A DNA stretch of 64,000 bases, from the NCBI GenBank assembly GCA_020429045.1, contig JAGQLS010000001.1:1-64000 (forward strand), read 5' to 3'. Each line of letters starts with the position of its first letter. Positions within the stretch are counted from its first letter, which is position 1. The notes beneath the pieces are model-generated. The model worked only from the letters and a program-made list of their open reading frames with translations. It was not told where the DNA came from and searched no databases. Below, piece after piece: positions 4,931-6,797 of the stretch. The translations under genes and the position numbers were made by a program. This DNA comes from Candidatus Woesebacteria bacterium. Its GTDB lineage: Bacteria; Patescibacteriota; Microgenomatia; UBA1406; GWC2-37-13.

Positions 4931-5707
4931 TTAAGATCCATAATACCCTCTCATATCTTCTGGGAGTAATGCTGCAATTTTAAACATCAAATCATCAACT
5001 TGATAGCCTCTTCCATCTTCGATTAGGAAAGGATCCCCGACAATACATTGTGGGTGTTGGAAAAGATTTGGTCCTCTACTTCCATTATCATTTACATATG
5101 TTATCCCGCAAGGGAGCACCACAATCGGGCTCCAATGCTTAATGAAGGATCTTACACCTTCTTCTGCTTTTTGCATGGTTCGATTCTTTGATCGCGTACC
5201 TTCCGGCAAAACAAGTGCTGTTTTATATTCTGTCTCTTTCCACTCTCTCACTTCTGTTATTAGTTGTCTTAGTAAACTCTTTGCTACTGACGGCGGGTAT
5301 TCTTTTCCAGTTATTTCAGAAACAGCTTCATTTACCATATAACTTTGCACGATCGGCTGTTCGTGATAACCGTATACATATTTTCCCAACTCGATCATTC
5401 CGTAATACAGTGGATTATTGCGCAAATTGTAATACCAATGCGAAACAGGCACAAAAAGATTTCTTTGTCCGTGCGGGTCAATAAGATGGCTATGAAGTCG
5501 CAAAAGAAAACCGGGATCAGGAAAAGAAATATGATTTGCAGCAAGAAGAAGTGCAATTTCAGGATGCTGCCCTAAATAATCACAAAGATCAACATCCCCG
5601 TCTGGTGTTTGAAGGTAAATAGAATCGATAGGTTGACCTTCTTTATCAACATATGTTAATGGTTGAACGACTTTAAGAAGAGGGTCAAAAAGTTTATATC
5701 GTTCCAC
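4931..5707 (-). CDS. PlsC-like acyltransferase family protein
   Basis: This 258-aa protein carries the two hallmark motifs of the glycerophosphate acyltransferase (LPLAT) superfamily. The catalytic NHISFPD (NH-x4-D, residues 58-64) and LPEGTRSKN (PEGTRS at 168-173) are separated by about 105 residues, as in PlsC. It may transfer an acyl group to lysophospholipid or another hydroxyl acceptor at the membrane surface; the acceptor cannot be told from sequence. No clear transmembrane helix is seen, which differs from classical PlsC. The flanks are rsmI (convergent) and a tRNA, so context does not help. Confidence 0.75.
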   Translation of the reverse strand: MERYKLFDPLLKVVQPLTYVDKEGQPIDSIYLQTPDGDVDLCDYLGQHPEIALLLAANHISFPDPGFLLRLHSHLIDPHGQRNLFVPVSHWYYNLRNNPLYYGMIELGKYVYGYHEQPIVQSYMVNEAVSEITGKEYPPSVAKSLLRQLITEVREWKETEYKTALVLPEGTRSKNRTMQKAEEGVRSFIKHWSPIVVLPCGITYVNDNGSRGPNLFQHPQCIVGDPFLIEDGRGYQVDDLMFKIAALLPEDMRGYYGS

Positions 5708-5848
5708 TTTGCTTATTATATCTTAAACCCTTGTAAAGAGAGTAAGGAAAGAAAAAAGAAGCTTGCTTATACTTGTATGGTTGCGAAAGTGGAGTGTATA
5801 CGTTCCCTTGATAAGGTAAGTTTTATAGTTTTAAAATGGTATAGAAAT

Positions 5849-5869
5849 GGGCGCAGCCAGCGCTGCCCC
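5849..5869 (-). terminator. Possible terminator hairpin after tRNA-Glu
   Basis: A GC-rich hairpin: GGG plus GCAGC pair with GCTGC plus CCC around a 4-nt loop, with one bulged base. It lies 24 nt downstream of tRNA-Glu on the minus strand and is followed by moderately T-rich sequence. The 5708-5892 gap holds nothing else recognisable. Confidence 0.35.
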
Positions 5870-5892
5870 TACCTCTGCAACAATATCCAAAA

Positions 5893-5968
5893 TGGTGACC
5901 CCAACGGGATTCGAACCCGTGTTACCAGGATGAAAGCCTAGCGTCCTTGGCCTCTAGACGATGGGGCC
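5893..5968 (-). tRNA. tRNA-Glu (anticodon TTC), CCA encoded
   Basis: A complete cloverleaf on the minus strand: acceptor GGCCCCA pairs with TGGGGTC, the anticodon loop is CTTTCAT (anticodon TTC), the T-arm is GGGTTCGAATCCC, and the 3' CCA is encoded in the DNA, unlike the other three tRNAs here. The length is 76 nt. The 3' end of the upstream GIY-YIG reading frame overlaps the tRNA 5' end by 15 nt. A second copy of the tRNA's first 12 nt and its leader lies 351 bp upstream (6308-6339). Confidence 0.95.
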
Positions 5969-6226
5969 GGCCAACAAATCAAAGTACATTCTCAACATCA
6001 ATTTTAGAGCTTTCTTACCTTTTGTTGTTTTAAAGTATTGCTCTCTTCTTTTTGCATCATATTTGTTGATATATGCTTCATAAAATATTAAACGAAATGG
6101 CCTCCTCCCTTTTGTTGATTTTACTTTACCTTCATTATGATATTTCAATCTATTATTTAAGTCGCCACTAAAACCAATGTATAAATTATAATCCTTGAGA
6201 CCATGCAAAATATAGACAAAAAACAT
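5954..6226 (-). CDS. Small GIY-YIG domain protein, inserted at tRNA-Glu
   Basis: A 90-aa single-domain GIY-YIG nuclease-fold protein. VYI is at 4-6, YIG at 16-18, the conserved Arg at 26 (NNRLKYHN) and the metal-binding Glu at 62 (AKRREQYFK). I choose the ATG at 6226 because the family begins MxxVYIL; an upstream in-frame ATG at 6247 would sit inside a hairpin. The last residues (LLAGPIV) are encoded by the tRNA-Glu 5' end, so the C-terminus looks improvised after insertion. It is flanked by near-identical 32-bp repeats (5957-5988, 6308-6339). Family members range from repair nucleases to homing-type enzymes; the specificity here is unknown. Confidence 0.85.
   Translation of the reverse strand: MFFVYILHGLKDYNLYIGFSGDLNNRLKYHNEGKVKSTKGRRPFRLIFYEAYINKYDAKRREQYFKTTKGKKALKLMLRMYFDLLAGPIV
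5957..5988 (-). repeat. 32-bp direct repeat, copy 1 (tRNA-Glu 5' end plus leader)
   Basis: Contains the first 12 nt of the real tRNA-Glu and 20 nt of its leader, including the TACTTT -10-like hexamer (plus-strand 5981-5986). It matches copy 2 at 30 of 32 positions. In this copy no good -35 lies at 17-bp spacing; the nearest TTGATG is only 9 bp away. Confidence 0.85.
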
Positions 6227-6244
6227 ACATGTATAATTTACTAC

Positions 6245-6271
6245 CATGAACCAAAATAAATTCGGTTCATG
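6245..6271. other. Hairpin 1 of the GIY-YIG unit
   Basis: An 8-bp perfect stem, catgaacc (6245-6252) with ggttcatg (6264-6271), and an 11-nt AT-rich loop. It lies just 5' of the GIY-YIG coding region on the minus strand and overlaps a possible upstream start codon, so it could hide or regulate initiation. Confidence 0.7.
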
Positions 6272-6277
6272 ACTAAT

Positions 6278-6306
6278 CCTGAACTGAACGTAAGTTCTAG
6301 TTCAGG
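6278..6306. other. Hairpin 2 of the GIY-YIG unit
   Basis: A 12-bp stem with one bulged t: cctgaact plus gaac pair with gttc plus agttcagg around a gtaa tetraloop. It directly abuts the second 32-bp direct repeat. The two stems are unrelated in sequence but sit in tandem, separated by 6 nt. Confidence 0.75.
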
Positions 6307-6307
6307 G

Positions 6308-6339
6308 GACGATGGGGCCGGTCAACGAATCAAAGTACA
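6308..6339 (-). repeat. 32-bp direct repeat, copy 2 (partial tRNA-Glu duplicate)
   Basis: Holds a second copy of the first 12 nt of tRNA-Glu and its leader, with two mismatches to copy 1. Unlike copy 1, it joins flanking DNA with a well-spaced promoter (6332-6360), so it looks like the original tRNA upstream region. Confidence 0.85.
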
Positions 6340-6360
6340 CATACCACGCTTGAAATTCAA
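6332..6360 (-). promoter_or_regulatory. Putative tRNA-Glu promoter, now upstream of the GIY-YIG unit
   Basis: On the minus strand TTGAAT (plus 6355-6360) and TACTTT (plus 6332-6337) are separated by 17 bp, and the duplicated tRNA 5' end lies about 12 nt further on. This is a normal sigma-70-type layout for a tRNA promoter. A transcript from here would carry 12 nt of tRNA, two hairpins, the GIY-YIG frame and then the full tRNA. Confidence 0.5.
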
Positions 6361-6434
6361 TTTTAGCAGAAAAGGATCAAAAAATCTATGCAGATCGCCG
6401 AATCAACTTAAAAAGCGCTTAATACTTCAGACCA

Positions 6435-6797
6435 TCAGGATGTGATACTTTCGAAATGTTTCAGTTCTTTCACCGATCTATCGCTATGTAACACAATCGA
6501 CACAACATCAAGACGGTGAAACTTCTCCAAAGACGAATGCTTTTTGATATACATAAGCATCGACCTATGTAAATGATTTATTTTTCGCCTGGTCATTTGC
6601 TCCCAGGGTTTACCCTTTTCATCTCCAATGCGCGTTTTTACTTCCACAAATACAATAGCGTTATCCTTCTCCGCAACAATATCAAGCTCGCCCCAGTGGT
6701 AGTATACATTTCTAGCGCGTATCGTATATCCATGTGAAAGAAGATAATCTGCGGCATATTGTTCCCCTAACGCTCCGATTGAACGGTTGTGTTTCAT
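6435..6797 (-). CDS. yraN: YraN/UPF0102 family nuclease-fold protein
   Basis: A 120-aa protein with the full UPF0102 signature: G-x-GE-x2-AA-x2-L at residues 9-19, then GELDIVAEKDNAIVFVEVKTR, which is the D-ExK core of a restriction-endonuclease-like fold. The family's role is poorly known; DNA repair or recombination is usually suspected. Its ATG overlaps the TGA of the upstream PspC gene (ATGA, 6794-6797), indicating translational coupling. Length is typical. Confidence 0.92.
   Translation of the reverse strand: MKHNRSIGALGEQYAADYLLSHGYTIRARNVYYHWGELDIVAEKDNAIVFVEVKTRIGDEKGKPWEQMTRRKINHLHRSMLMYIKKHSSLEKFHRLDVVSIVLHSDRSVKELKHFESITS

Follow-up and report, generated by a model that had tools for sequence, protein, structure and literature searches.

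Layout and distribution of a minimal hairpin and GIY-YIG element at the 5' end of tRNA-Glu and of many other tRNA genes in Patescibacteria

Integrase islands which regenerate the tRNA gene they enter are well known, and free-standing GIY-YIG nucleases have also been known near the tRNA genes of phages. Among the islands collected in Islander the use of the 5' end is rare (the tDNA fragment is from the 5' end in 159 islands and from the 3' end in 3760), and candidates under 2 kb are excluded from that collection (PMC4383910). SegB of the phages T4/T6 is a GIY-YIG homing endonuclease which cleaves within tRNA genes and drives the tandem amplification of tRNA-segB, with the help of microhomology between the 5' end of the tRNA and the 3' end of segB and without isotype preference (PMC13096335). 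Additionally, a survey of rRNA genes in the CPR described sparse intron-less GIY-YIG insertions, which were placed outside homing, and tRNA was not mentioned there (PMC11270868). Another kind of small mobile DNA, REP/RAYT, depends on a tyrosine (Y1) transposase; it is extragenic and is not known to target tRNA genes.

The locus presented here was found in the window, by which we mean the whole stretch of 64,000 nucleotides that was analysed, and its parts are listed in Table 1. On the minus strand the promoter and the first 12 nt of tRNA-Glu are followed by two hairpins, a GIY-YIG ORF and an intact tRNA-Glu. The two direct repeats (5957-5988 and 6308-6339) are identical at 30 of 32 positions with a spacing of 351 bp, and each consists of 12 nt of the tRNA (5957-5968 and 6308-6319, respectively) and 20 nt of leader; according to our own arithmetic the chance expectation for such a pair less than 400 bp apart in 64 kb is about 6e-9. 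A preliminary description, made from sequence alone, had claimed a unit of about 351 bp with a GIY-YIG ORF and two hairpins between these repeats, the presence of tRNA nt 1-12 and the leader in both repeats, a well-spaced promoter that is kept at the distal copy and lost at the real tRNA, and a GIY-YIG frame ending within the tRNA. All of these claims held for this copy: TTGAAT, 17 bp and TACTTT stand upstream at the distal repeat, no -35-like hexamer was found 17 bp upstream of the proximal TACTTT, and the stop codon TAG of the ORF is nt 13-15 of tRNA-Glu. The long leader part, nevertheless, is atypical, since the duplication of 20 nt of leader is peculiar to the tRNA-Glu copy and other copies mostly include 0-3 nt. 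The left end of the foreign DNA also had to be refined: it is the hairpin within the truncated tRNA copy, not the edge of the repeat.

Table 1. Features of the element at tRNA-Glu and of its surroundings (positions in the window)
Feature	Position	Strand	Basis or remark
tRNA-Glu (TTC), intact, regenerated target	5893-5968	minus	ARAGORN; Rfam tRNA 58.5 bits
Proximal 32-bp repeat	5957-5988	minus	20-nt leader-like stretch and nt 1-12 of intact tRNA-Glu; doubles as 3' end of GIY-YIG frame
GIY-YIG nuclease ORF	5954-6226 (open from 6247)	minus	Pfam PF01541, E 7e-14; start by homologue alignment
Hairpin H2 (ATGAACC...GGTTCAT)	6246-6270	minus	sequence and fold
Hairpin H1 (CCTGAACT...AGTTCAGG)	6278-6306	minus	directly after nt 12 of truncated tRNA copy; sequence and fold
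Truncated upstream copy of tRNA-Glu, nt 1-12	6308-6319	minus	repeat alignment
Presumed ancestral tRNA-Glu leader and promoter (TTGAAT 6355-6360, TACTTT 6332-6337)	6320-6360	minus	now upstream of truncated copy; ancestral status based on sequence and on left-flank homology of empty versus occupied sites at other loci
yraN/UPF0102 gene, synteny anchor, outside element	6435-6797	minus	Pfam; synteny

The single GIY-YIG ORF is the whole coding content of the unit, in which no integrase could be recognized from the ORF list and Pfam. Its likely start is codon 8 (6226) and not 6247, since the homologues begin with MFF or MYY. In the alignment with homologues the Tyr, Arg, His and Glu columns are invariant. 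A profile search of solved structures placed the nuclease of the window nearest to UPF0213 (1ZG2, E 3.6e-20), with SLX1 at E about 1e-5; neither UPF0213/YhbQ nor SLX1 is known to act as a mobile element. Both hairpins are strong: the stretch that holds them, folded as a whole, has z = -4.1, and the fold of the part between the truncated copy and the ORF has z -7.5. A group I intron at tRNA-Glu was rejected on the basis of Rfam, since in the scan of 5600-6700 the tRNA was the sole significant match and no group I intron was detected.

In the genome from which the window comes, which totals 1.19 Mb in 58 contigs, seven GIY-YIG ORFs were counted. Five of them immediately precede the 5' end of a tRNA that is read in the same direction (Glu, His, Phe, Leu, Asn), and in each case a second copy of the 5' part of this very tRNA is present beyond the ORF, away from the tRNA. 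The tRNA-Asn case was identified by visual inspection, since ARAGORN misses this gene on account of an intron: besides the 5' GIY-YIG element it holds a group I intron (L006 1752-2002, contig C54; Rfam RF00028, 92.5 bits). Matches were obtained in 52 of 57 relatives, with 0-17 copies per genome. When the 105 ORFs of the own genome and these 57 relatives were examined, 46 ended at most 80 nt from the 5' end of a same-strand tRNA, as compared with an expectation of about 0.3% (four tRNAs per 64 kb, a 100-nt window, one strand), and another 28 were within 300 nt 3' of a tRNA. For 38 of the 46 a duplicate of the tRNA 5' part scored above all 20 shuffles; at 36 control tRNAs without a GIY-YIG neighbour the score of a 5' duplicate never exceeded 11. 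A chance repeat was rejected in view of these negative controls, the 30/32 match and the recurrence of the pattern at many loci. The isotypes used are Glu, His, Phe, Leu, Val, Asn, Lys, Ser, Gln, Cys, Asp, Gly, Tyr and Pro, the duplication varies from about 10 to 70 nt, and the unit measures approximately 300-400 bp with an ORF of about 80-100 codons. The ORF stops within the tRNA in 24 of the 46 cases, 12 of them at nt 8-10, that is at the common T8-A9-G10 (our own count). An exact TATAAT was present at most 30 nt upstream of the ATG in five of the 46 (0.5 expected); in four of these it stands 6 nt before the ATG, which suggests a leaderless promoter. With respect to its layout, the insertion at tRNA-Glu is one copy of an element family which occupies many tRNA genes across Patescibacteria, a group of bacteria of very small size that have for the most part not been cultured; that the family is mobile is inferred.

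Insertion at orthologous loci was demonstrated with the aid of conserved neighbours. yraN (UPF0102) precedes tRNA-Glu in many relatives; the site between them is empty in 13 and occupied on the 5' side in five others, while two further relatives have the ORF on the 3' side of the tRNA. The distance from yraN to tRNA-Glu at the empty sites is 52 in one relative and 687-896 in the twelve which have an intervening gene, versus 469 in the window, 484 in L119 and 1064-1131 in the four other occupied loci. Subtraction of the repeat-to-repeat unit (window 351, L119 389, L109 351, L116 331, L123 396; its length was not measured in L104, which is left out) gave 118, 95, 743, 733 and 735, respectively, close to the empty class. 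The empty sites that correspond to the window belong to other genera of its family. The second anchor, an exonuclease-like gene before tRNA-Asn, showed empty sites with distances of 56-177, occupied ones in the own genome, L234 and L244, and a 3'-side copy in L255. Within one genus the flanks of tRNA-Glu and tRNA-Phe were too rearranged, and only tRNA-Val gave a clean pair (occupied G036 versus empty G007), with 69% identity of the flanks over 1175 bp in a local alignment and 88% identity of the intact tRNAs. The flank alignment stops at nt 10 of tRNA-Val, adjoining the start of the hairpin, therefore the left junction is precise, lies inside the tRNA, and the old promoter has remained on the side of the truncated copy. 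It should be emphasized that empty alleles of the same site were shown between species; there are no data on polymorphism within a species. The preliminary description had pointed to two kinds of site which would bear on its proposal, tRNA-Glu loci lacking the unit and other tRNA genes with a 5' duplicate and a GIY-YIG ORF, and both were found. Its view of a minimal mobile element that targets the 5' end of a tRNA is supported, with the movement inferred from the distribution. Its remark that targeting of the 5' end is unusual also held against the island counts given above, to which we add that a related class on the 3' side of tRNA genes and beside tmRNA also exists.

The truncated tRNA copy is normally broken by one or two hairpins, mostly in the D-arm, although the anticodon loop (Ser: L035, L053), the T-loop (Ser: L086) and the acceptor stem (Gln: L058) are also used; past the hairpin there usually follows some more of the tRNA sequence, and then the ORF. 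The stretch from the copy to the ORF folded with a median z of -3.5 against shuffles, and 27 of 33 were below -2. The hairpin is conserved: CCYGCCYGC...GCRGGCRGG is common to a nuclease clade found at Asn, His, Lys, Gln, Met, Arg, Leu and Val, and TTTACCCG...CGGGTGA to the Val nuclease clade. Since the hairpin sequence is common within nuclease clades across tRNAs and phyla, the hairpin is to be counted as part of the element. Beside the occupied intact tRNA-Phe of L010/L214, on its downstream side, a complete tRNA-Phe-like pseudogene was noticed, which is interrupted by three hairpins with CCGANTCGG cores.

It remains possible that we see here a REP-like transposition of palindromes, where the GIY-YIG enzyme would mobilise single-stranded hairpins and place the hairpin and the ORF into the loops of structured-RNA genes without homing by double-strand breaks. 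In favour of this, hairpins are inserted at many positions with little or no loss of tRNA nucleotides, and hairpins without an ORF exist (the second tRNA-His copy in L003, L135 and L142, and the three-hairpin pseudo-tRNA-Phe beside L010). Furthermore, non-tRNA relatives (L132, L140, L161) hold the ORF inside the palindrome, and SLX1, a structure-specific nuclease, is among the nearest solved relatives. Against it, in the tRNA class a complete hairpin stands outside the ORF and the target is duplicated, and to our knowledge no GIY-YIG transposase of this type has been described. The elements resemble REP/RAYT in having short palindromes tied to an encoded DNA-processing enzyme (PMC2817692); the criterion of a Y1 transposase beside the palindromes is not met, the enzyme being GIY-YIG.

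The nuclease tree was built from 99 sequences and 82 columns and has many weak forks. The tRNA isotype requires 26 changes on it versus at least 36 in 300 shuffles, while the host family requires 15 changes versus a shuffled mean of 14.6, thus no host signal was detected on this tree. The nuclease clades follow the tRNA isotype and not the host, and those of Val, Phe and Asn are strongly supported. The Phe clade contains both 5'- and 3'-sided copies, so the side is not fixed by the nuclease. A single clade was marginally rejected for the six tRNA-Glu nucleases (p 0.037, the clade having been named after the tree was viewed) and was not rejected for the four of tRNA-Asn (p 0.24); these values suggest, without proving it, that one site was invaded several times independently.

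These data bear on the assumption that the GIY-YIG protein is a host gene, serving the cell in DNA repair or tRNA-related control from within tRNA operons, with the duplications being ordinary tandem ones. This could be supported by the nearest solved relatives, the UPF0213 proteins, which are not known as mobile, and by the fact that most of the ORFs are open. It is disfavoured by the patchy presence at orthologous tRNA loci, the variable copy number per genome, the agreement of the tree with tRNA isotype instead of host and the hairpin in the truncated copy, and we consider it very unlikely.

Stacking of the elements was also observed. Two different GIY-YIG ORFs are stacked at one tRNA-Gln (L065), and at a contig end (L045, G004 contig C2) there are 12 identical tandem units of 357 bp, each with a tRNA-Ser fragment, hairpins and a GIY-YIG ORF; a contribution of the assembly to this 12-unit array is not excluded. 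In the sister genome (L028, G034) the contig also stops at the site of the tRNA-Ser array. The intact tRNA of occupied loci shows no visible alteration, which together with the stacking indicates that immunity is seemingly not based on the tRNA sequence.

The likely explanation is a tRNA-directed GIY-YIG homing element, without transposase and intron, by which the target is restored; both the cleavage and the mobility are inferences. According to this model the isotype-specific nuclease would cut the 5' half of a tRNA gene which has no unit, and repair of the break would add the hairpin and the ORF. Regeneration of the target is shown: the 5' part of the tRNA is present twice after insertion, so that a working tRNA is kept immediately behind the unit. 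Co-transcription of nuclease and tRNA would start at the old tRNA promoter and, in some copies, also at the TATAAT 6 nt before the ATG; RNase P would then free the tRNA from this transcript. Where the stop codon lies within the tRNA, we propose that this cut may leave a non-stop mRNA and limit the output of the nuclease. The intact tRNA would remain a target, and this, we propose, may be why the elements stack. Cleavage of the cognate tRNA gene, insertion by break repair, co-transcription, release by RNase P and loss of the stop codon are all inferred. A referee may object that neither cleavage nor transfer has been observed, that the avoidance of self-cutting is unexplained, and that homing alone gives no account of how a 5' end is acquired from a new tRNA isotype. 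The need for the hairpin is not explained by homing either, and this point is addressed by palindrome transposition.

Compared with the described systems, the proposed homing element stands closest to phage SegB and the integrase islands, although the hairpin and the 5' reconstitution match neither. Like SegB and the free-standing GIY-YIG homing endonucleases (PMC13096335), it has an intron-less GIY-YIG protein adjoining tRNA genes. Unlike SegB, it resides in cellular genomes with an ORF of about 80-100 codons, restores the tRNA 5' end exactly, has a hairpin in the truncated copy, and its nuclease clades are tied to the tRNA isotype. Two criteria of a free-standing homing endonuclease element are fulfilled, namely empty alleles of the site (between species) and a phylogeny that goes with the target site and not with the host, whereas cutting of the allele without the unit is inferred. 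With the integrative islands (Islander, PMC4383910) it shares a split target regenerated by a carried fragment, and tandem arrays; it differs in the lack of a tyrosine integrase, the unit of about 300-400 bp and the 5' instead of the usual 3' fragment. Consequently, of the criteria of an integrase island, the tRNA fragment and regenerated tRNA flanking the unit are met, the integrase within the unit is not. The locus might also be the relic of a larger integrase island at tRNA-Glu, reduced to a tRNA fragment and a passenger GIY-YIG gene. Islands regenerate the tRNA likewise, 159 of 3919 of them by 5' fragments (PMC4383910), and on the viral contig L226 a GIY-YIG ORF and tRNA-Lys stand beside a serine-recombinase-like gene. 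This is very unlikely as well, since the minimal unit is uniform: a size of 300-400 bp recurs in dozens of copies without an integrase, and the hairpin is common to them. L226, where the ORF is just upstream of tRNA-Lys and the serine-recombinase-like gene follows on the opposite strand, was the single relative in the scan of viral contigs. A phage origin was rejected on account of this and because the PHROGs search gave no match for the GIY-YIG protein of the window.

No description of GIY-YIG elements at tRNA 5' ends was found in the literature searched, from which preprints and most subscription journals were outside, and GIY-YIG, candidate phyla radiation and tRNA did not occur together in it. 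We regard the family as a modified form of the free-standing homing elements, previously undescribed as far as this literature shows; that it is a class of its own is a serious possibility. The CPR rRNA insertions are similar in host group, GIY-YIG ORF, lack of a group I/II intron and position at the tips or bases of stem-loops (PMC11270868).

In the scan of named genomes the tRNA layout was present in Roizman-, Magasanik-, Falkow-, Kuenen-, Komeili-, Nomura-, Levy-, Gottesman-, Beckwith- and Collierbacteria and other Patescibacteria, and in none of 25 relatives from named phyla outside Patescibacteria. Relatives outside Patescibacteria, and some within, have related ORFs inside palindromes within protein genes. 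A bolder reading, which we find rather more doubtful than convincing, is that of a new class of minimal mobile DNA: a hairpin and a GIY-YIG nuclease without transposase, integrase or intron, which would be specialised for the loops of structured-RNA genes (tRNA 5' side, tRNA/tmRNA 3' side, rRNA) and, in certain protein genes, for conserved 5' motifs, with isotype-specific regeneration of the target by 5' duplication and an expression throttled by tRNA maturation, which would remove the stop. Independently of this bolder reading, the family would give a reason for the abundance of small GIY-YIG genes in Patescibacteria and would represent mobile elements that exploit the rarely used 5' side of tRNA genes. 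Its nucleases, each suited to one tRNA isotype, would form a natural collection of small enzymes, and the family would be relevant to the GIY-YIG insertions without intron which the survey of CPR rRNA genes left outside homing (PMC11270868).

Several non-tRNA cases were recorded separately. A separate nuclease group with hairpins of its own was seen in the vicinity of tmRNA genes, or behind tmRNA-like or tRNA 3' ends (L023, L027, L031, L049, L061, L068, L087, L094, L097). In L034 the GIY-YIG ORF stands between the inverted repeats CCCCATCCATC/GATGGATGGGG in apparent 23S rRNA sequence, resembling the 23S rRNA insertion type of the CPR survey (PMC11270868). In L132, L140 and L177 a NAD-dependent epimerase-like gene is interrupted in its 5' end, after GGAGF, by a palindrome with a related ORF inside, and the 5' end of this gene is duplicated downstream, as at tRNAs. 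Similar inverted-repeat elements are apparently located in genes of four-helix-bundle (23S IVS protein-like) proteins (L162, L180, L182, L184, L201, L203) of Bacteroidota (one cultured), Thermodesulfobacteriota and others. In L161 and L163 (Yanofskybacteria) the ORF, with the terminal inverted repeats CACCCCGTTAGAG/CTCTAACGGGGT, is situated in the GFTLIE motif of pilin-like genes and apparently reads into the pilin frame.
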